Shown in pieces: positions 27,785-39,526 of a stretch of 39,526 bases of DNA (positions are counted from its first letter, which is position 1; each line of letters starts with the position of its first letter). This stretch comes from Candidatus Zhuqueibacterota bacterium (lineage in GTDB: Bacteria > Zhuqueibacterota > Zhuqueibacteria > Oceanimicrobiales > Oceanimicrobiaceae), in assembly GCA_029262035.1 (NCBI GenBank), contig JAJDAE010000281.1, forward strand, positions 1-39,526. The letters run 5' to 3'. The notes under the pieces were generated by a model. That model was not told the origin of the DNA. It ran no database searches and saw nothing but the letters and a program-made list of their open reading frames with translations. The position numbers and the translations under genes were made by a program.

Positions 27785-30700
27785 ATGAAATCAAAACGGT
27801 GTTTATTCAGCGCTCTAAAAGTTGTTGCTAAGGGTTTAATTTTTCTGGTTCTTGCAGCAAGTCTAAGCAATCCGGCGCTGACACAGTCATCCTCAAACCA
27901 GCAAAACAGCGGACCATTTAAGTTTGAGAATGGGGTACGGAAAGCCAGATTCCTAATCGTCAATTTTAAAAATAAAATTTTTAATCTTCCTCAGGGTAAA
28001 AAAACAGCCGAAGTGAATGACATGCAGAAAACTTATGGTTCAATTCGAAGGCATTTTGAGCAATTGGAAGCCCGTTATGGAAAACTGAACTTTCATAAAC
28101 AAATCCCTGACGCAGTCTGGGGGGATGTTTTGCGGCAAAACCGCAAAACGGGTAAACTTGTACAGTTGCATGAATGGTCACAGTACTTTTACGTTGTCTT
28201 TCCGGATTTTGTACTCATTGATTCCCTTATGGCAACAATGAAGGAGTTGCCCGAAGTAGATTATGTTCGGGCTCCCGTAATTGCTGTGCCCCAGGTTACA
28301 CCCATCGATCCAGAGTTCAATAGTCCCACCGGACAATGGAACCTGGTCAAAGTCGATGCAAAAAATGCCTGGAATATCAGCAGGGGTTCTTCAGATGTTA
28401 TTGTGGCAGTTATAGAGGCAGCAGGCGGCGCAGAAACAGGTATACCTTTTTTTGCAAATCCAGATTTTTGGACCGGTGATGGCGGTACCAGCGGTACGTC
28501 TAAATTTGCTCCCGGGGGGCATACCGGTGCGGCAGGTCCGCACGCAACCGGTGTTGCCGGGATAGTGGCGGCAGCAACCGATGATACGGATGGCATTGCA
28601 AGTCTGGGATGGGATATACGCATGAGACCTTACAAGTTCGACGAAAGCCGGTTACCTGACTTTGGTAATGTAGGCCTTGCTGCGGCAATCGAGTTAGCAA
28701 TTGCTGAAGGCACTGATGTGATTAATTTTAGCTTCGTGTTGGAGACCTTTGAAACAAGACCTCCTGTTCCTTGTACAGGTTGTCTATTTCGTAGGTTGGT
28801 CAATTGCGGCGACATGCCGGACACCGAGGCAGCCATTGAGGACGCCAAGGGCATGGGCATTATAATGGTCGCGGCTGCCGGCAACAATATCAATAATTGG
28901 GTTGTTTCGGGTGGAACAAATTGTGCCCCATGCCTTGAACTAGGTGCACAAGGGGCGTACCCCGCTTTGAATGATTACGTTTCTGCAATAACTGCTACAG
29001 ACAGCAATGACGATGCCGTCACAGATTTCAACTTCGGCAACTTCATTGATTTTGCTGCTCCTGGTATGGTAGTCAGAACGACCGTAGGGAATGCAATCGA
29101 GAATTTCAGTGGTACTTCGTTCGCCTCGCCACTGGTCGCATCCCTGGCAGGTCTTGTTAAGTCCATCAATCCGATGATTACTCAAGCAGATTTCAAAAAC
29201 ATTTTGATTACAACATCTGAAGATGTAAATCAGGCTCAATATCCCGGAAAGGATGTCTATCTTGGTTACGGCCGCATCAACGCCTACGAAGCCCTCAAAT
29301 ACACGCTTGAAAACTATGGCGGCACTTTGAGCGGTGATGTTTTGCTTACAGAAGATTTAACCATTGCATCAGGAAAAACACTGACGATAGAGGATGGTAC
29401 GACCATAGAGTTTGATTCCGGCGTTCAACTCACCATCAACGGCGTTCTCAATGTCAATGGTCTAAGTGTATCTAAGGTCACTTTTACCCGCAGTGGCGGC
29501 ACTGGCAACTGGGATGGCATCAGATTCAACACCGGTTCCTCCGGCAATGTCAACCATGCGATAATTGAGTACGTCAGTAACGGAGACGGCATCAATATTC
29601 AGTCCGCGTCGCCAACCATAGAAAACACCACCATCAGCAATTGCCTGTGGGGTCTCAACCTGAACACATCCAACGCTGTTATTGAAAACTGCATTATCGA
29701 CAACAACGATGAGGGCGTTTTTGACCGCTATGGCGCAGCGCAATACTTGGACAACACCATCAAGAATAGTTTTGGCACCCTCACCGATGGCAACGGGCTC
29801 AATTTTAATAACGCCGATCCGATGCTCTTTCGCAATGTTATCGAGGACAACGATACCGGCGTTTACGGCAGCAATGCCGCATTTGCACAATTTGGGGCAC
29901 CGGCTTGACCGGCAACAATGTGATTCGCGACAATAGCGTGGGACTTTCTTCTTCCGGGGCAAGTACGTATTTATGGCTGGGAGAGGACGGCAATTTCGGC
30001 GGCGACAACAGCGTTTACAGCAACACCGGCCTGGATGCCCTTGGCTTGAGCTCCAGTTGGGTTTGGGCTGAGAATACCTGGTGGGGCAGCGCCTCCGGCG
30101 GTAATGTTTATGGCAATGTTATCGATGATTCCCCTTTGTCTTCCGACCCCAATTCGGGCATGGCGCCGGCGAGAGAGATGGAGTTGCAGGTCGCTCTCGA
30201 GCCCACGGAAGAAAAGGGTGTGGACCAAGCCATTCTCGATTTACTCAAACAACGCCGCCTGCACCGCACCGGCAAACTGCCCGGTTTCATTAGTATTCTA
30301 CAAACTACTGCCACTAATAAATCCGGCACTGAACTGGGCAAAGTAGCAAGAGGCCTGTTGGCAGTGGAATATTATTTAGACGGAAAATTTGACAGCGCCC
30401 TGGCAACTGCACAGGAAAGCAAAATTGAGGTTGCCGGAACAGAATTGGAGGCGCTTGCCATGTTGGTTTTGTTCGACACCTATCTCTACGGTTAAAAGGA
30501 CAGCAATTCCGCCAGCACGATTTTGACTGAGTTGACTGCAAAATACGCCGATGAAAAGTTGGTCAAACGGCTACAGTTTGAACTTGACCGCAACGCATTC
30601 GTTAAGACAGAAAACTTCTCTGTGCTTAAAAGTACATCTCAAGATGAGACTGAATTGCCTCCTGCGGCTCCTGAAAACAAAAGCCTGTTTTCAAATCACC

Positions 30701-30972
30701 CGAACCCCTTCAATCCCGAGACCCGGATTCAATACCAAATCTCCGAAGCCAGCTTAATCCAGCTTAGAATCTACAATCTGATGGGGCAGGAAATCAGAAC
30801 GCTGGTGCAAGAGCAACAAAATCCCGGAACTTACTCAGTCGTGTGGGACGGTAAAAATGACTCCGGCATCGAGGTGAGCAGTGGTGTTTACATTTATCAG
30901 GTTACGGTTCAACCGAATTCGCCGGACTCCCGTCCGTTTCAGAAAAATGGCAAAATGTTGTTGGTGCGGTAA
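27785..30972 (+). pseudogene. Secreted subtilisin-like (S8) protease with beta-helix and sorting domain, disrupted
   Basis: Reconstructed length is about 1062 aa. Order: signal (1-34), propeptide-like 45-170, S8 domain about 180-480, parallel beta-helix about 510-760, a helical tail, and a sorting domain with NHPNPFNPET ending MLLVR. Of the catalytic residues, H253 (PHATGVAGI), N367 (AAAGNN) and S445 (FSGTSFASP) are present. The Asp strand reads VIVAVIEAAGG, with Glu211 where subtilases have Asp-Thr-Gly. Pieces: 27785-29908, 29905-30495 and 30523-30972. A base is missing in the G-run at 29894-29897, after which GTGLTGNNVIRDN continues the helix; TAA at 30493-30495 interrupts the tail. AAGAAGG precedes the ATG. 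Confidence 0.82.
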
Positions 30973-31060: not shown

Positions 31061-33499
31061 TCAGGAATCAATAAACTCCTTAACGTGGTTTTCATATTCC
31101 GCAATCAGGGAATGGCAACGGTGCTCTTCGGCGGCTTCAACCATAACATGGCAAACGGCTCGATCATGATCCGGCAGTACAAGCACCCAGCCATCCTCAA
31201 AAATAAGTTTTACGCCGTCAACCAACACTCTTGGTTTCCCTTCCGAAAGTTCGGTCATCTTTCTCATAACGGTGCCCTTGCTTTCCCAGGGGCACGGTAC
31301 AATTGCAGTCTTAAAAAACTTCCTGGGTATGGATTGATTTAATTCATGGAGAGAAACGCTATTTATTGTCAGTAACTCAAGGGTTTTTACAAGGGCATAC
31401 ATCCCATCAAATGCAAAATGGAAGGCGGTAAAAATAAATCCGCCACGGATGCCCACTGCAAAATCTACATCGGTATCCTCAGTGGCTTTAATAATTGCAC
31501 TATCAGCATCCGGGGTGTAAACTAATTCGAAACCGTGTTCAAGAGACAATTCTTCAATTTGACTGGGTACACAAACAGGTGCGGCAACTTTGCGGGGTTG
31601 ATTGGATTTTAAGAACAATTGTGTGATTAAAACTGCAAATCTTTCACTGGGAATAATTTCTCCGGTTTCGTCGACTGCAATTATTTTTTCAGCGCCGGGG
31701 TCAATCAGAAATCCCATATTGGAATTAGTAGATCTTACAATTCCGGAAAGCTGTTGTAACGCATTGTCAAACTCTTCTTTACTTTTGCTTAGTTTATTGT
31801 GATCCAAATGTGCATTAAGGGAAATAATTTCACACTCGAGGTCACCGATAATTGAGGGAAAAATTTCCGTAGCAGAACCATAGGAGTAATCAATTACAAT
31901 CCGATAATTTGCATTTTTTATAACATCAAGGCGGGTGTTCTTTAAAAAATCGGTAATATAGAATTCAGTAACACGGCCGGGATATTTAATTTCACCGACC
32001 TCTTCACTATCTACTCGCGGAAAGTCCTCACGGAAAAAAACTCTCTCCACTGCTTTGCTAATGCTGGTGGGTAAATCCCTTCCCGCGCCATCAAAAAATA
32101 AAATATCGGTCATTTTTCTGTCGTAAGGGGATAATCGAATGTAAACACCGCCGGTGCGTACCGAAGATAAAAGCGCGTACCGGATTAGCGGAATAGGCAA
32201 TACCTGCAATGTGCTGATATTTACACCGGCAGACATTAGTCCGGTGATTATCGCCCGGTAAATCATTCGCGAGGCATGGGTCGCATCCCTCCCCAGTAAA
32301 ACATGTTTTCCTTTGCCAACCCAGGCGCCAAAACTTGCACCTAATTTTGCTGCAAACTCGGGGGTAAGTTCATAATTCGTTAATCCGGTCACTCTTGAAT
32401 TCACAAAAACTTCACGCTGCCATGTGTCCCCCCAGACAATGCTTGAATTAACAATTGAAGCAAAATCAATAGATTTTTGGGGCCAGATTTTTATGTTCGT
32501 GTTTATGAAACTATCCGCGCCAATATTCACATCATTGCTAATGTAAACATCATCATTTATAATTGTATTTTTACCTACTTTACAATTATCTGCAATGACA
32601 TCATTTCTTAGTTGGCAATTTTCTCCAACCTCGACATTTGCACCTAAAATGACGTTTGCCATTTCTGCACCACTTCTAACTTTACAATTATCACCAAATA
32701 CAACATTTTGTAATTTTACATTTTCATCAATTTCACAGTTCTCTCCGAGGAAAATATTGCCATCCCTTAACTCAGCCTGGTTCTCTAAGGTGATCAAATT
32801 ATTCATCGCATCCCAATGAACCTGAGAATAAGTTTTTAAATCACCAATATCTTTCCAATAGCAATCCGATGTATATCCAAAAACTGGTTTATTTTCCATT
32901 AATAAAGCCGGGAAAACATCTTTGGCAAAATAATATTCTTTTTCTTCAGGAATATAATCGAAAATTTCAGGCTCCAACATATAAATCCCCATGTTCACCG
33001 TATCGCTGAAAACCTGGCTCCACGATGGTTTTTCCAGAAAGCGGGTGATGCGATCATCGGAATCTGCAATAGAAATACCGTAAGGTGATGGATTGTCAAC
33101 TTTGGTTAGGGCGATGGTTGATATTGCCTTTTTGTTGATATGAAAACCGGTTAATTCATCGAGGTCAATGTCTGTTATTGCATCCCCCGACAAAACCAGG
33201 AAACGCTCTTGAAGCCGACTCGCAGCTTGCTTTACGGCGCCGGCAGTTCCAAAATCATCCTTGGCAATAATATAATCCAGCTTAACCCCGAGCCCGGAGC
33301 CATCGCCAAAATAATCTTTAATTACATCCGGCAGGTAGTACAGCAGAATTATAATATTTCTGAAATTGTATGTTTTAAGGAGTAGAATTGTATGTTCGAG
33401 GATGGGCCTGTTCATAACAGGCACCATGGGTTTTGGGACTTGGCAAGTTAAGGGCCGTAAACGCGTACCGAGCCCACCCGCCATAATTACTGCTTTCAA
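31061..33499 (-). CDS. Mannose-1-phosphate guanylyltransferase / phosphomannomutase-like fusion
   Basis: 812 aa in three parts. Residues 1-235 are a nucleotidyltransferase (MAGGLGTRLRPLT 6-18, VPKPMVPV, GTAGAV 84-89, EKP 156-158, WKDIGD). About 245-370 are left-handed hexapeptide repeats. From about 380 on there is a phosphohexomutase-like domain (LGRDATHASRM). The mutase active sites are altered: the serine loop reads IRLSPYD (454-460) instead of TASHNP, and the metal loop DPGAEK (600-605) instead of DGDxDR. Mutase activity is therefore doubtful. The start is TTG at 33499, required to keep the KAVIMAGG strand, with GAGG in the end of glgC. It lies 2 bp after glgC. Confidence 0.85.
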   Translation of the reverse strand: MKAVIMAGGLGTRLRPLTCQVPKPMVPVMNRPILEHTILLLKTYNFRNIIILLYYLPDVIKDYFGDGSGLGVKLDYIIAKDDFGTAGAVKQAASRLQERFLVLSGDAITDIDLDELTGFHINKKAISTIALTKVDNPSPYGISIADSDDRITRFLEKPSWSQVFSDTVNMGIYMLEPEIFDYIPEEKEYYFAKDVFPALLMENKPVFGYTSDCYWKDIGDLKTYSQVHWDAMNNLITLENQAELRDGNIFLGENCEIDENVKLQNVVFGDNCKVRSGAEMANVILGANVEVGENCQLRNDVIADNCKVGKNTIINDDVYISNDVNIGADSFINTNIKIWPQKSIDFASIVNSSIVWGDTWQREVFVNSRVTGLTNYELTPEFAAKLGASFGAWVGKGKHVLLGRDATHASRMIYRAIITGLMSAGVNISTLQVLPIPLIRYALLSSVRTGGVYIRLSPYDRKMTDILFFDGAGRDLPTSISKAVERVFFREDFPRVDSEEVGEIKYPGRVTEFYITDFLKNTRLDVIKNANYRIVIDYSYGSATEIFPSIIGDLECEIISLNAHLDHNKLSKSKEEFDNALQQLSGIVRSTNSNMGFLIDPGAEKIIAVDETGEIIPSERFAVLITQLFLKSNQPRKVAAPVCVPSQIEELSLEHGFELVYTPDADSAIIKATEDTDVDFAVGIRGGFIFTAFHFAFDGMYALVKTLELLTINSVSLHELNQSIPRKFFKTAIVPCPWESKGTVMRKMTELSEGKPRVLVDGVKLIFEDGWVLVLPDHDRAVCHVMVEAAEEHRCHSLIAEYENHVKEFIDS

Positions 33500-33501
33500 A
33501 A

Positions 33502-34770
33502 TTATACCTCAGCCAATGGCCTGATCGTTTCCCCTGGTTGAATATTATTAGATTTATAATCACCCGCTCTAAGCCGCGGATGCAAAATACTATTTTTCCC
33601 CACTTTAATATTTGGTGGAACAATAGCGCCTTTACCAATCACCACCAGCCCTGACGACAGATGTTCCGGCTTATCGATATTGGCGATTGCACCACTCCCA
33701 ACCCCAATCTCGGTATATTCGCCAATCGTTACTTTTTTATCCAAAATACTTTCCTGCACCTTACTTTGTTTATGAATCAAACAATTGTGCATAATCACCG
33801 AGTCTGTTATTACAGCGCCCTTTTCTACAATAACTCCAGGCGATAAAATTGAATTTTCAACATAACCATGAACAATGCATCCAGGAGACAAAATTGAATT
33901 TTTAACATTCCCGTCCGGCGCAATAAAAGCAGGCGCCCGATCAGCAAATCTGCCTTCTTCTTCAACATTGCTGCGCATACCCCAATCTTTGAGCGCTAAA
34001 CCTGATTCGGGTTTAAGCAAATCCATATTCGCTTCCCAGTAGGCCTGTATCGTCCCGACATCGCGCCAATACCCTGAAAAAGGATAGGCAAAAACATTGT
34101 CATTTTTGATGGCGTCCGGAATAATATTATGGCCAAAATCATGGCCTTCGTGCTGTTTCAGGCGATGCAGTAAATAATCTGCCTCAAACACATAAATGCC
34201 CATTGAGGCATAATTATTACGCGCTTTGGCGGGTTTTTCTTCCCAGTCAATAATTCTATCCTCATCATCTGTAATAGCAATTCCAAAATGCCGGGTATCT
34301 TCCCACGGGACAATGAGCATACCAATTGTTAAATCCGCCTTCTTTGTTTCATGGCAGCGAATCAATGAAGCGTAATCCATATTATAAATATGGTCACCTG
34401 ACAAAATAAGAATTTTATCGGGATTATTGGATTCAATAAAGTCAATATTTTGGCGAACAGCATCGGCAGTGCCTTTGTACCAGTCAGAATCTTCCTGCCC
34501 GGTTCTGGGTGGGAGAATTTTAGCCCCGCGTGTACGTCCCACAAAATCCCAAGCCTCGCCGGTACCAATATGTTCCATTAACGAAAGCGGCTTATATTGC
34601 GTTAAAACACCAACAATATTAAGTCCGGAGTTCATTGCGTTGCTCAAAGCGAAATCTATAATTCGGTAGACACCTCCAAAAGGTACTGCCGGTTTAGCAC
34701 GCGCAGCTCCTAAAACATTCAGCCGGCTTCCCGCTCCGCCAGCTAACAACATGACAAGCGTCGATTTCAT
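33502..34770 (-). CDS. glgC: Glucose-1-phosphate adenylyltransferase (catalytic subunit)
   Basis: 422 aa. It makes ADP-glucose for glycogen synthesis. The N-terminal pyrophosphorylase motif is complete: LAGGAGSRL (9-17), ARAKPAVPFGG (23-33). Also present are WYKGTADAV (97-105), SGDHIYNMD (124-132), WEEKP (176-180), SMGIY (189-193) and YWRDVG (234-239). The C-terminal third is hexapeptide beta-helix. Its ATG shares a base with the stop of the upstream paralogue (TAATG), so the two are translationally coupled and probably form a mixed tetramer, as in GlgC/GlgD pairs. Confidence 0.93.
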   Translation of the reverse strand: MKSTLVMLLAGGAGSRLNVLGAARAKPAVPFGGVYRIIDFALSNAMNSGLNIVGVLTQYKPLSLMEHIGTGEAWDFVGRTRGAKILPPRTGQEDSDWYKGTADAVRQNIDFIESNNPDKILILSGDHIYNMDYASLIRCHETKKADLTIGMLIVPWEDTRHFGIAITDDEDRIIDWEEKPAKARNNYASMGIYVFEADYLLHRLKQHEGHDFGHNIIPDAIKNDNVFAYPFSGYWRDVGTIQAYWEANMDLLKPESGLALKDWGMRSNVEEEGRFADRAPAFIAPDGNVKNSILSPGCIVHGYVENSILSPGVIVEKGAVITDSVIMHNCLIHKQSKVQESILDKKVTIGEYTEIGVGSGAIANIDKPEHLSSGLVVIGKGAIVPPNIKVGKNSILHPRLRAGDYKSNNIQPGETIRPLAEV

Positions 34771-36032
34771 TATAGAATAGAACCTGATTTATATTCTTTT
34801 TGTTGAAAATGTTTTTCGGTTAATCCGGGACTAATGACACAACCTTTTCCAATCACAATGTCCCTAGGGACTGCTGTACCTTTTCCAATTAATGTAATGC
34901 CGAGTTCAGAATGCTCACCACCTCCGGAATTGTTTCCTAACCCAATCTGGGTACCGGCGCCAATAGTCACATCAAAATCTGTTATGGTATAATCAAGCTT
35001 TGCGTCAAAGGAGATTATATTGTCACTGAAAATTATAGAATTCTTTACAACTGCCCCTTTTTTAACTTTTACTCCCGGAAAAAGAATGCTGCTTTCAACC
35101 TCTCCGTCAATCTCACACCCATTCTGGATCAGTGAATTTCGAATATTGGCTTCCGCGCCAATTTGTGCAGGTGCGCGATCTCTCAGCCTGTCATGATCGA
35201 GATTGGTTCTTACTTTCCACCCTTCCAGAACAATTTCAGGGGAGTCTCCCAAAAGCGCCATGTTGGTTTCCCAATATTCATCGATGGTTTTAGAATATCC
35301 CCAATAACCACCAAAATTATAACCATAAACTTTATAATTTTCTAACATTTTAGGAATAATATCACGGCCAAACTCATGTGACTGAGAATTTAAAGAGTTG
35401 TCCTTTAAAACGGAATACAGAACTTCGGGCTTAAACATATAAATCGTCAAACTCGCCCACTCTAACTTGCTCTCATTATCTTTTTCCCGATATTTTAAAA
35501 CACGGCCGCCTGAGGCGTTACATTCAGTATCAATTTCAGCTGCACCAAATCGATGGCTCAAATTCGGGTCTATCGGTGCAAATGCAATGGTTAAATCCGC
35601 ATCCGTTTCTTTATGCATTGCATGCATCGAAATGTAATCCATTTTATAAACATGGTCACCCGATAATATCATAATTGTGTCGGGCTTATTTTCCTGGATA
35701 AATTCAATATTCTGGTAAACCGCATCGGCAGTGCCCTTGTACCAATTTCCCGCGCTATGGCGCAGGGTTGGCATGAGCATGGTTGCACCGCGGTCTCTTC
35801 CAAGAAAATCCCACCAGGAACCTACACCAACATGGTTATTCAACGCAAGGGAGCGATACTGGCATAAAACACCAACGCGTTCAACACCAGAATACATTAA
35901 ATTACTTAGGGGAAAATCAATAACTCTGAACATACCGCCAAAGGGGACGACGGATTTAGGTCGGAATAGAGTCAGTACACTTAGCTCGTCTACCCGGCCT
36001 CCTGCCAGAATAAGCGCCAATACATCCTTCAC
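34770..36032 (-). CDS. GlgD-like degenerate ADP-glucose pyrophosphorylase paralogue
   Basis: 420 aa, same fold and length as GlgC. Key catalytic positions differ: LAGGRVDEL (9-17) replaces LAGGxGSRL, REKD (182-185) replaces EEKP, SLTIY (194-198) replaces SMGIY, and GGYWGYSKT (241-249) lacks the Asp of YWRDVG. The WYKGTADAV (97-105) and SGDHVYKMD (124-132) motifs remain. It is therefore probably a regulatory subunit of the neighbouring GlgC, although a separate active subfamily with this LAGGRVDEL start may exist. Start GTG at 36032 overlaps the TAG of the 56-aa gene upstream (TAGTG). Confidence 0.82.
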   Translation of the reverse strand: MKDVLALILAGGRVDELSVLTLFRPKSVVPFGGMFRVIDFPLSNLMYSGVERVGVLCQYRSLALNNHVGVGSWWDFLGRDRGATMLMPTLRHSAGNWYKGTADAVYQNIEFIQENKPDTIMILSGDHVYKMDYISMHAMHKETDADLTIAFAPIDPNLSHRFGAAEIDTECNASGGRVLKYREKDNESKLEWASLTIYMFKPEVLYSVLKDNSLNSQSHEFGRDIIPKMLENYKVYGYNFGGYWGYSKTIDEYWETNMALLGDSPEIVLEGWKVRTNLDHDRLRDRAPAQIGAEANIRNSLIQNGCEIDGEVESSILFPGVKVKKGAVVKNSIIFSDNIISFDAKLDYTITDFDVTIGAGTQIGLGNNSGGGEHSELGITLIGKGTAVPRDIVIGKGCVISPGLTEKHFQQKEYKSGSIL

Positions 36033-36202
36033 TAAGATTTACCAAATTTTATCTCAATAAGCCTACCCACGCCAAAAATAGCCACACCAATTAATGCTAT
36101 TTTCAATTCGGCGGCTAAATCATCTTGAGAGATTCCGATGAAAACGCCAACGAGTACCTGACCCAATCCAACTACTTCTAATATTTTGGCTAAATACCAC
36201 AT
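36032..36202 (-). CDS. 56-residue membrane protein coupled to the GlgD-like gene
   Basis: ATG at 36202, stop TAG at 36032-36034. The protein starts MWYLAKILEVVGLGQVLVG. It has two predicted membrane segments, about residues 3-23 and 35-48, joined by the acidic loop SQDDLAAE, with the basic end RLIEIKFGKS. The stop overlaps the GTG start of the GlgD-like gene by one base (TAGTG), a typical translational-coupling arrangement, which argues for a real gene. It follows the Rieske gene after 90 bp. The family was not recognised; no Shine-Dalgarno is obvious. Confidence 0.65.
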   Translation of the reverse strand: MWYLAKILEVVGLGQVLVGVFIGISQDDLAAELKIALIGVAIFGVGRLIEIKFGKS

Positions 36203-36292
36203 AAATTCTATGTGCCTAAATTTTCAAAATGAGTAAAATACCTAAAATTATTTCTGCCTTGCAACTTACCCTAAATGCTCAGGCTTCAATAA

Positions 36293-36928
36293 TTAAACAG
36301 AAAGAATAGAGCCCGGTTTACCCCAATCGCCTTTTTCTTCCAGAAACTTAATGCTTTTATCAATCAACAACTGGCCGTCTTCAGCGAGAGCAACTTTTAC
36401 CCGTTCCAAAGGTCGGGGGGCCGGTCCTTCAAAATTAACTCCTTCACTTGTGAAGCCGCTTCCGTGACACGGACATTTAAATTTATTTTCGGCATCCAGC
36501 CACCTCGGCGTACAGCCCAAATGAGTACATTGCGCGAAGATAGCATAAATTCCTTCTTCATTTCTCACTATCCAAACGCGTTGGTCTTTCACCCATTTTG
36601 TAGAAACAGCGCCCAGAGGATAATCATCGGGATACCCTGCTTTAAACACGGGTGATGGTTCAAACAGTACGCGTGGAAACATAAACCGCAGCGAACCGAT
36701 TAAGAATGAGCCTACAAAAGCAAAAAAAGCGATCCAACCTGAACGGCTAAAAAAATTACGGCGGCTCATCCAAAGCGAACCTTTTTCATCAACAGCAACT
36801 TTTTCTCTTGGCGAAGGTCTATCTGTTTTAACAACTTTCTCGGTAGAACTTTCCCCTGGTTTGACATCTGAAGTTACATTTCGAGTCGGCTTGCCTTCTG
36901 CGGAACCTTGATTTATTTCGTCTGCCAC
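36293..36928 (-). CDS. Membrane-anchored Rieske [2Fe-2S] protein (bc-complex type)
   Basis: 211 aa. The N-terminal 55 residues are charged and low-complexity. Then comes a twin-arginine-like MSRRNFFSRSG with one membrane helix (about 63-83). The Rieske domain carries CTHLGC (C134, H136, C139) and CPCHGSGF (C152, C154, H155), ending in GPAPRPLERVKV. This is the architecture of the iron-sulfur subunit of quinol-oxidising cytochrome bc complexes, but no cytochrome b gene lies on either side. The GTG at 36928 has GGAGGA (36936-36941) 7 nt upstream; the longer reading from 37012 runs into the promoter. Confidence 0.9.
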   Translation of the reverse strand: MADEINQGSAEGKPTRNVTSDVKPGESSTEKVVKTDRPSPREKVAVDEKGSLWMSRRNFFSRSGWIAFFAFVGSFLIGSLRFMFPRVLFEPSPVFKAGYPDDYPLGAVSTKWVKDQRVWIVRNEEGIYAIFAQCTHLGCTPRWLDAENKFKCPCHGSGFTSEGVNFEGPAPRPLERVKVALAEDGQLLIDKSIKFLEEKGDWGKPGSILSV

Positions 36929-37107: not shown

Positions 37108-38205
37108 TTAACGAATGAAAGTCAACTTTCTTGACTCACGAAATTTATTGGCGCTAATGCTATAAATATAAACACCACTCGCTACCTCCAGGCCGCTGTC
37201 GTTTCTACCATTCCAATTAACCGAATGAAATCCCGGCGCTTGTTCGCCATTTACCAATTGACTAATAAACTGCCCTTTGAGGTTGTAAATTGCGATGCTA
37301 ACGTTTGCATTTTCAGGCAAAGTATAATCAATTTTTGTTTCAGGGTTAAAGGGATTAGGATAGTTTTGGGCAATGGTGAAATTTTTTGGTGCCGTAATTT
37401 CAATCTGAATTGATTCGGAATAGTCGAACGCGCCATCTAAATCAACTTGTTTTAAACGATAGCTGTAGGCACCGGGCTGTAAACTATTGTCTTCAAAACT
37501 ATAGCTTTGTGCAACCACTGTGGTACCACTACCTTCAACAAAACCAACTTTTTCAAAATCTGCTCCTGCTACGCTGCGCTCAATTTCAAAGCCCAGGTTA
37601 TCGGTTTCGGTTTGTGTTGCCCAGTTCAGAGAAACCTTGTTTTGAAAAACATTATGGGTGAAGGATGAAAGTTCAACCGGTAACAAACCATCCGAATCGT
37701 TGAGGGTACCAATTGAAGCTACAGTTATTTCGTCATCCACAAAAATACCTGTCTGATTTGGAGATGCTGTCCTCCAAGCTAAATTAGCAGTAAGCTGAGG
37801 TTGTGCAATCGTAAAATCAATGGTTGCAACATCCATCCAGTCAGTCGAAATAGTTGTACCATTGTTAGTGCTATTTAGCACGATATTTATAACTACCCGG
37901 CCGGTCACCGGCTCCGAGAGTGCAAGAGTTGAATAATTACCACCGCTAAAATTAGCCGGTGCAATATTAGTTGGGGCGTTCAACCCAGTTGTGTTATATG
38001 TAAAAGCCAATCCACCTGTCCCCATGGCGAACTGTTGTGAACCTGAAGATTTAATTTGTATTTTCACATCATATTCACCGGCTGCAACCATATCATTCTT
38101 AACAATAACAAATTGCAAATCATAGGCATTTGTTTGTGCAACAACTTGACTTGTTCCAAGTGAAAACAACATTGCAAATAAAATAAATAGAACTCTTAGT
38201 CTCAT
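37108..38205 (-). CDS. Secreted beta-sandwich protein with C-terminal sorting domain
   Basis: 365 aa. Signal peptide to about residue 24 (VVAQT). Residues 25-160 form a beta-rich domain that broadly resembles cohesin-like modules (VTGRVVINIVLN, VATIDFTI). A fibronectin-like domain follows (PVELSSFTHNVFQNKVSLNW, about 175-275). The C-terminal FlgD-like/type IX sorting domain has NYPNPFNPETKIDY and ends LTFIR. It is probably exported and bound to the surface by the type IX system. GAAGGAG precedes the ATG. The beta-helix protein gene ends 30 bp upstream, so they are cotranscribed. Confidence 0.78.
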   Translation of the reverse strand: MRLRVLFILFAMLFSLGTSQVVAQTNAYDLQFVIVKNDMVAAGEYDVKIQIKSSGSQQFAMGTGGLAFTYNTTGLNAPTNIAPANFSGGNYSTLALSEPVTGRVVINIVLNSTNNGTTISTDWMDVATIDFTIAQPQLTANLAWRTASPNQTGIFVDDEITVASIGTLNDSDGLLPVELSSFTHNVFQNKVSLNWATQTETDNLGFEIERSVAGADFEKVGFVEGSGTTVVAQSYSFEDNSLQPGAYSYRLKQVDLDGAFDYSESIQIEITAPKNFTIAQNYPNPFNPETKIDYTLPENANVSIAIYNLKGQFISQLVNGEQAPGFHSVNWNGRNDSGLEVASGVYIYSISANKFRESRKLTFIR

Positions 38206-38235: not shown

Positions 38236-39526
38236 TTATTCAGGAATTTCTGGTAATTGTGTAGCTTTTCCGTTATTTGGCCGCCACTCAAGATTTATAT
38301 CAAAAGCATCAATTCCGCCATCCAGGTTAAAATCACCTAACTTGGTGTAATCCCACGTTGAACCATTTTGAGTACGCCAAATCAGATTTCTATCAAATGC
38401 GTCAATACCACCGTCACCGTTGCCATCACCGGCAATCATACCGAAATTTCCTTCTCCCAAACTAACCATCGCATCTCCACCTAAAGAAAAAGTTTTGTCA
38501 AGTCCCGTGGTAAAGTCATACAATGTAGATGTTTCGTTAGATAAATTAACTTCAGCAGCACTCATAATTGCCAAATGGTTTCGATGTTTAATGACAATAT
38601 AATAGGAATAGGTCAATTCAGAAACACCATTTACAGATTGTTTATCAAACTTGAATTTTCTCTTTGAAAGTGCCTGCTGGAATAGCACTCTGACCTGGCC
38701 GGTTGTTCCATCATCTGCAACGATGCGACCATCCGGGTGCAGAAAAGCGCTATATCTTGTGACAGGAAAGTAAAAAGTTTCATTGATACCGCTTGCAGAT
38801 TCAACTTCACTTAAAACTTGCCACAATTCAATCGAAACCCAATCTACAACACCTTCAGGAACTTCATCCACAGTTCTTCCATCGAAATAAGGAGAACTGG
38901 TGGGAATGCCCCCCTGGGTGTTAAGGTTATTGGTCATTGCATTATTGCCATCATAAGGTCCTTCGAGGAAAATTTTTGCCTCGACCAGGACATAAGGCGG
39001 CTCACATGGTGAATTCGCAAATAGTGTAAATGTTTCAAACGGTATGAACGTAACACCTGAATCTATCAGATCACCATCTCCGGTTCCAGCACCGCTGGGT
39101 CCACCCGGGTCACCCCAGTAATTGCCAGTAGCAATCACATTGGAAGCGCCATCATTATCTACGGCAATACCGCTGTTGCAAAACTCATTGCCTTGAATTT
39201 CCGTACCTGTGCTGGCCTCGTCAAAAATGTAAACTGCAAATCCTTCATTATTGCTAAAAATATTATTCTCAATTTGACCAGACGAAAGAGTGACCATGAC
39301 CCCATCGCCGTTGTCAATAAATTCATTAAAATCAAGATCGAAAGTAGGTACGCCATCAAACAAGACACCCAACTGATTATCCATGAAGTCAGTTGTTTTT
39401 GCTTGAATATATTGAGCGGACTCAGTAAAAATCCCATGACCATTGCTACTCAATGTACTATTTTTAATTTCTACTCTGCTTTTATCGGAACTACCGTCTC
39501 CAACATATATACCCACAGAGTTGTTA
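38236..39526 (-). CDS. Partial secreted parallel beta-helix protein with dockerin-like repeats
   Basis: The reading frame is open to the window edge (codons before the apparent GTG at 39516 continue as N-N-S), so the N-terminus is missing. The visible part, about 430 aa, begins with right-handed beta-helix repeats (NSTLSSNGHG, NIFSNNEGFAVYI) and the GNYWGDPGGPSG motif that ends such helices. A roughly 170-residue beta domain follows. The last 60 residues hold two Ca-binding EF-hand-like repeats, GDGNGDGGIDAFD and GDFNLDGGIDAFD, as in dockerins. No sorting domain is seen at this C-terminus. Confidence 0.8.
   Translation of the reverse strand, partial: NNSVGIYVGDGSSDKSRVEIKNSTLSSNGHGIFTESAQYIQAKTTDFMDNQLGVLFDGVPTFDLDFNEFIDNGDGVMVTLSSGQIENNIFSNNEGFAVYIFDEASTGTEIQGNEFCNSGIAVDNDGASNVIATGNYWGDPGGPSGAGTGDGDLIDSGVTFIPFETFTLFANSPCEPPYVLVEAKIFLEGPYDGNNAMTNNLNTQGGIPTSSPYFDGRTVDEVPEGVVDWVSIELWQVLSEVESASGINETFYFPVTRYSAFLHPDGRIVADDGTTGQVRVLFQQALSKRKFKFDKQSVNGVSELTYSYYIVIKHRNHLAIMSAAEVNLSNETSTLYDFTTGLDKTFSLGGDAMVSLGEGNFGMIAGDGNGDGGIDAFDRNLIWRTQNGSTWDYTKLGDFNLDGGIDAFDINLEWRPNNGKATQLPEIPE

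Follow-up and report, generated by a model that had tools for sequence, protein, structure and literature searches.

A stretch of 39,526 nucleotides (nt) from a Candidatus Zhuqueibacterota bacterium (assembly GCA_029262035.1, contig JAJDAE010000281.1), called the window here, carries a small gene encoding a membrane protein of 56 residues with two predicted helices. With moderate confidence, and according to gene order and co-occurrence only, we assign this protein as a supernumerary subunit, or an assembly or stability factor, of the octaheme Rieske/cytochrome b6 complex. The preliminary description of this DNA had proposed two roles for it, namely to recruit an enzyme to the membrane or to serve the respiratory protein. 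The results below fit the second role better than the first.

Co-occurrence with the complex in the phylum

The phylum is called KSB1 here, and 82 of its genomes were searched with a profile of the small protein (A1) and with a wider profile (A4). The small protein was detected in 14/82 genomes with A1, and also with A4. The genome G012 was left out of the A1 count (E 0.008, two in-frame stops), and with A4 it gives no match at E ≤ 0.001. The long Rieske protein (E ≤ 1.2e-90) is present in exactly the same 14 genomes; weaker Rieske matches also occur in some genomes. For the complex's octaheme cytochrome the count is 15/82 genomes, comprising 8/8 genomes of the window's family (f1) and 7/8 genomes of a second family (f8); the count of G001 comes only from a piece at a contig end, located beside petB and petD. 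Three more genomes have merely a partial octaheme match, with 30-32% identity. In the fifteenth octaheme genome, G007, petB, petD and the octaheme gene are present, and searches there for the Rieske protein (E ≤ 1e-20), the GlgD-like protein (E ≤ 1e-60) and the small protein gave no match. The pattern looks as if one contig of G007 were missing.

The small protein is found in 14/15 genomes with the octaheme gene and in 0/67 genomes without it (Fisher 7e-15). A GlgD-like match at E ≤ 1e-60 is found in 45/82 genomes, where G054 at least matches solely via its GlgC-like gene. The corresponding figures for GlgD are 14/45 and 0/37 (Fisher 1.5e-4), and both p-values overstate the independent evidence because the carriers belong to only two families. 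So the small protein tracks the complex more closely than it tracks GlgD.

Gene order inside and outside the phylum

In f8, the order petB-petD-octaheme-Rieske-small-GlgD is observed in 6/7 carriers (L038-L040, L042-L044), and in the seventh (G039) the contig ends within the octaheme gene. The products of the f8 operon are a cytochrome b6 of 257 residues, a subunit IV of about 293 residues and a protein of about 890-920 residues with eight CXXCH motifs. A Pfam check of L039 gave PF00033, PF00032 and cytochrome c domains. In the f8 genome G052, the GTG start of the small gene overlaps the TGA of the Rieske gene. In f1, petB-petD-octaheme is located on a different contig; in the window's own genome this is C46 (L123 6426-10847, minus strand), where a lipoprotein-like gene comes next.

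In 12/14 genomes, the small gene has a Rieske gene on its 5' side, on one contig and in one orientation, with further listed open reading frames (ORFs) between the two in G001 and G006. The two small ORFs at this place in G006 (L035 8440-9118) may be a nucleotidyltransferase/HEPN-like pair. The GlgD-like gene comes after the small gene in 14/14 phylum carriers. A gap separates the two in f8, and an ORF without assignment lies there in G045 and G027. We read the overlap of the small gene with GlgD, described below, as an operon arrangement particular to the small protein's KSB1 family, and GlgD as a KSB1-specific downstream neighbour.

Genome contigs were also scanned with a Rieske alignment, and the best 80 loci of a longer list were analysed, 3 from the phylum and 77 from outside. 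A profile of 13 known small proteins was run over the six frames of these loci. Matches at E < 1e-4 were obtained in 13/80 loci, namely the 3 phylum loci and 10 others, and further rounds added none. The ten outside loci are titled Deltaproteobacteria (4), Binatia (2), Alphaproteobacteria, Proteobacteria, bacterium and Klebsiella metagenome-assembled genome (a doubtful label). All ten show the order Rieske-petB-petD-small-octaheme on one strand; they are not all independent, because the small proteins of L200 and L207 are identical. The distance from the petD stop to the small start is -1 to +23 nt. The DNA around the small gene of these ten loci contains no GlgD match at E ≤ 1e-8.

In a second phylum, that of G117, the small protein was detected in 4/198 genomes, and the order is petD-small-octaheme in 4/4 carriers. 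An octaheme match at E ≤ 1e-40 is present in 9/198 genomes; in the same 4 it starts from residues 1-9, and in the other five from about residue 240. In both phyla, the small protein (E ≤ 0.001) is found in 0/67 and 0/194 genomes without the operon's full-length octaheme protein, respectively. For the second phylum, the split between full-length and partial matches was made post hoc; counting all nine gives 4/9 against 0/189. The small gene stands with core subunits in unrelated lineages (the ten outside loci, 4/4 second-phylum carriers and six f8 loci).

The small gene and its neighbours in the window

The features of the window around the small gene are as follows.

36032..36202, minus strand: small gene, coding sequence of the two-helix membrane protein of 56 residues (ATG at 36202, TAG at 36034-36032)
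36032, minus strand: base common to both genes (TAGTG), closing the TAG of the small gene and opening the GTG of the GlgD-like gene
36203..36292, minus strand: spacer of 90 nt from the Rieske stop to the small gene
36293..36928, minus strand: Rieske [2Fe-2S] protein of the octaheme Rieske/cytochrome b6 complex (Pfam Rieske, E 2.6e-10)
34770..36032, minus strand: GlgD-like protein (ADP-glucose pyrophosphorylase paralogue) of 420 residues, downstream neighbour
33502..34770, minus strand: GlgC-like glucose-1-phosphate adenylyltransferase, downstream neighbour
31061..33499, minus strand: nucleotidyltransferase-phosphomutase fusion, listed with a TTG start, further downstream

The preliminary description gave an ORF at 36032-36202 placed between a Rieske gene and glycogen enzymes, with a one-base TAGTG overlap and two membrane segments. 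These points agree with our reading of the DNA, to which the strand, absent from that description, is added as minus. The ORF starts with ATG and encodes 56 residues. The G at 36032 ends its TAG stop and begins the GTG of the GlgD-like ORF of 420 residues. The Rieske ORF ends at 36293, and the GlgD-like and GlgC-like genes are located downstream. For the Rieske start at 36928, GTG was chosen to align with the starts of relatives. The hydrophobic stretches of the small protein correspond to residues 7-23 and 35-51, and the predicted helices to residues 2-26 and 29-53.

The GlgD-like protein (34770-36032) has GGRVDEL in place of the GGAGSRL of the adjacent GlgC-like protein, in the N-terminal stretch that we take to be the nucleotide-binding motif. 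Because of this replacement, the GlgD-like protein may be non-catalytic. Elsewhere in the window, the ORFs at 37108-38205 and 30523-30972 have terminal FlgD_ig domains with sub-threshold matches to type IX-like sorting domains. A right-handed beta-helix protein is encoded at 38236-39526; close to its end it gives a weak dockerin-like match (E 0.002), which misses the cut-off.

Conservation, selection and predicted fold

The protein had been suggested to be real and conserved, and the checks named for this include a conserved frame in relatives and a synonymous/nonsynonymous comparison. These two were performed. Among 60 related genomes, matches to the small protein were found in 6/7 other f1 genomes (E ≤ 4.5e-19) and in 7/8 f8 genomes (E ≤ 3.1e-6). 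Including the window's own gene, an uninterrupted frame is found in 14 genomes, which represent two families, with 40-100% identity and zero interrupting stops. An alignment of 13 sequences, which leaves out the near-identical fourteenth (L012), shows 11 invariant columns, and Gly12, Gly23, Glu32, Gly39, Phe43 and Gly46 are invariant among 22 sequences.

For the 21 pairs of the seven f1 genes, the mean proportion of nonsynonymous differences (pN) is 0.197 and that of synonymous differences (pS) is 0.826. The mean pN/pS of 0.24 (range 0.09-0.41) indicates purifying selection, with the limit that synonymous sites are near saturation and a finite dS is obtained in 2/21 pairs only. The variable columns at codon positions 1, 2 and 3 are 30, 17 and 53 of 55, and the remaining five frames have stops in most of the seven sequences. 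An AlphaFold2 model calculated with 32 relatives has helices at residues 2-26 and 29-53, with a mean predicted local distance difference test (pLDDT) of 91.6 and a predicted template-modelling score (pTM) of 0.69. In the model, the small protein is an antiparallel two-helix hairpin, which would be integral to the membrane. The conserved open frame, the purifying selection and the predicted hairpin together support a real gene for a conserved small membrane protein. Basic residues are present near both ends of the protein and acidic ones in the loop. Because of this distribution, both the N- and C-terminal ends are probably in the cytoplasm.

In the f8 relatives, an NTG codon is found at one aligned place in 7/7 sequences (L008-L014, around position 1489), being CTG in 6 and GTG in 1. 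A GGAG- or GGGA-like stretch is located 5-6 nt before this codon in five. The probable start of the f8 small gene, judged from these letters, is CTG. Because of this probable start, gene finders could miss the f8 gene. In L013 and L014, an additional in-frame ATG is present four codons earlier.

Comparison with known proteins and complexes

Database searches gave no convincing match to the small protein. In NCBIfam, 0/32 members matched at E ≤ 0.01. In Pfam, 1/32 members matched T4SS_pilin (E 0.0013) and 1/13 members matched YtpI (E 0.041). Against the PDB sequences, the profile A3 gave 0 matches at E ≤ 10, and A4 gave one partial match (E 1.6), to the c chain of an ATP synthase. In a fold search, 22 matches passed E ≤ 10 and 0 passed E ≤ 0.001, and on closer comparison these are common helical hairpins. 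The best structural neighbour is 7q21_K (63 residues, Corynebacterium III2-IV2), with a Z score of 8.6 and a root-mean-square deviation of 2.1 for 55 aligned residues; common helical arrangements reach Z scores of this size, and Foldseek gives an E value of 4.0. In the open-access literature searched, covering titles and abstract openings, such a small protein is named nowhere, which leaves its absence from the literature unproven.

The small supernumerary subunits of related complexes include PetG, PetL, PetM and PetN of the b6f complex and subunit IV of the Rhodobacter bc1 complex. The four Pet subunits have one helix each, whereas the small protein has two predicted helices. The known GlgC/GlgD ADP-glucose pyrophosphorylase pairs are also relevant, as the small gene precedes such a pair in the window. 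That family is not known to include a small membrane protein.

The Corynebacterium supercomplex offers a precedent for small subunits whose recognition came late (PMC8795186). The subunits P6, P8 and P12 of the Corynebacterium bcc-aa3 supercomplex are small supernumerary subunits, and no sequence relation of the small protein to these or to the other small subunits named above was found. Octaheme Rieske/b6 operons have been published for Nitrospina gracilis, Kuenenia stuttgartiensis and Methylomirabilis oxyfera, which represent nitrite oxidation, anammox and nitrite-dependent methane oxidation, respectively (PMC3578206). Complexes of Kuenenia have been modelled, with five helices in subunit IV instead of three, and what exactly the anammox complexes do is called unclear (PMC12954380). 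According to both papers, the complexes of these three organisms resemble the operon described here in having a split cytochrome b (b6 and subunit IV), a Rieske protein and an adjacent octaheme gene. In contrast to the operon here, the passages describing them name no small two-helix protein, and the two b6f-like Kuenenia complexes also bear putative NAD(P) oxidoreductases (PMC12954380).

Proposed role and points against it

The complex would be composed of the Rieske protein, the PetB-like cytochrome b6, the PetD-like subunit IV and the eight-heme cytochrome c. The hairpin may pack by its conserved glycines against the membrane part of the complex, beside subunit IV and the octaheme subunit's anchor. 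It would help to fix the position of the multiheme subunit or of the Rieske anchor. A short hydrophobic protein that, by prediction, spans the membrane is also the form expected of a supernumerary subunit. The data show a real and conserved gene that co-occurs with the complex and that, in distant phyla, stands within its operon between petD and the octaheme gene; the membership in the complex, the position, the topology and the stabilising role are what we infer.

Several observations weigh against this assignment. The small gene keeps its GlgD neighbour in 7/7 f1 carriers, overlapping it by 1-4 nt in 6/7, and it stays with GlgD in G002 and G005, whose Rieske gene lies on a different contig. 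Among the 77 outside loci, many four-gene operons pass from petD to the octaheme gene without a small gene, including operons titled Nitrospina and Poribacteria. Genomes behind 45 of these 77 loci were searched with the small-protein profile; in 38 of the 45 loci, petB and petD adjoin the Rieske gene. No relative was found in 15/45, and in 19/45 a relative is located away from the complex. In the phylum of G097, searched with the small-protein profile only, a relative is present in 8/395 genomes. A two-helix hairpin by itself also says little.

Alternative explanations

The relatives located away from the complex bear on a first alternative, in which the protein is no subunit and serves redox- or heme-related processes at the membrane in a general way, its family being used by several unrelated operons, among them that of the Rieske complex. 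In the 45 genomes, relatives were found in 30 (weakest E 5.3e-4), of which 10 were already known, 1 is new and 19 are elsewhere. The new one, in G123 (L222), is a further case of petD-small-octaheme. The contexts of the 19 elsewhere loci include lgt/glutaredoxin, HmuY/DUF420, CBM9, an aspartate-aminotransferase-like gene and an ABC transporter, several being named by eye. Within about 1-1.5 kilobases on each side of these 19 relatives, no petB, petD, octaheme, Rieske or GlgD was detected except for one petD match in L223, which is short and weak (E 2e-5) and on the opposite strand.

Some of these contexts recur, which favours a general protein. In 7/7 loci read in the phylum of G097 (L262-L268), lgt and a glutaredoxin-like sequence (DUF836) precede the relative, with an rRNA methylase gene next in six; Pfam supports the lgt context in L262 and L263, with PF05768 in L263. 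Three of the 19 elsewhere genomes (G092, G094 and G097) also have the lgt context. A glutaredoxin-like domain and the hairpin lie in one frame in L230, according to Pfam, and in L264. In L257, a divergent relative is part of a run of HmuY, a protein of 194 residues, the hairpin and DUF420, and a similar run was recognised by eye in L253 and L258-L260; these five loci are titled Nitrospina, Nitrospinaceae, Nitrospirae and Alphaproteobacteria. In L224 and L229, the relative comes after CBM9 genes. The closest relatives outside the phylum, however, sit in the complex operon, and the genomes of the two phyla without the full-length octaheme protein carry no small protein at the threshold used above. 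We consider a general protein possible but doubtful for the window's gene. As the family is wider than the complex, the claim of a dedicated subunit is limited to the window's branch and its closest relatives. In the profile search, one TGA was flagged in the match of G144 (L241), whose frame of 54 codons is nevertheless uninterrupted on reading, and a TAA was flagged in the match of G098.

The role of recruiting an enzyme to the membrane, suggested in the preliminary description, would make the hairpin a tether or regulator of GlgD, made together with it through the stop/start overlap and anchoring or tuning the glycogen enzyme. The constant GlgD neighbour in the 14 phylum carriers speaks for this, as does the overlap in f1, kept in the two genomes with the Rieske gene elsewhere. 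Against it, the small protein is missing from 31/45 genomes in which a GlgD-like match is present, with the qualification for G054 given above, and no small ORF with two hydrophobic stretches was found upstream of 16/16 GlgD-like genes in non-carriers, by a code that found the small gene in 6/7 carriers and so can miss it, and with only 347 nt covered in L072. GlgD matches are also absent beside the small gene outside the phylum, and in G045 and G027 the unassigned ORF parts the two genes. The tether has lost ground because GlgD-like genes without the small gene are common, and we judge it improbable.

The two roles can be combined. The KSB1 small protein would be a subunit of the complex that also docks the GlgD-like protein with the altered motif, coupling glycogen synthesis to the quinol pool and its redox state, and the family would be an unrecognised two-helix module of several membrane redox systems (the Rieske complex, glutaredoxin fusions and HmuY/DUF420). 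We regard this combination as speculative and very improbable. That the short ORF is a translational spacer, mainly coupling or tuning GlgD translation, is compatible with the stop/start overlap but hardly credible, as the amino acids are kept despite synonymous change and the protein is present where no GlgD match follows.

A split-off piece of subunit IV was also considered as the origin of the small protein, prompted by the five helices modelled for the Kuenenia subunit IV, and was rejected. PetD shows 5-7 hydrophobic stretches in loci labelled as carriers, including G007, which is without the small gene, and 5-8 in most other full-length cases; in this comparison, a crude count of stretches and no profile comparison, no exchange was seen.

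Implications

As a supernumerary subunit or an assembly or stability factor of the octaheme Rieske/cytochrome b6 complex, a conserved small partner would alter the parts list for modelling and purifying these complexes. Overlooking through unusual starts, as suggested by the probable CTG start in f8, may apply to other small subunits too.
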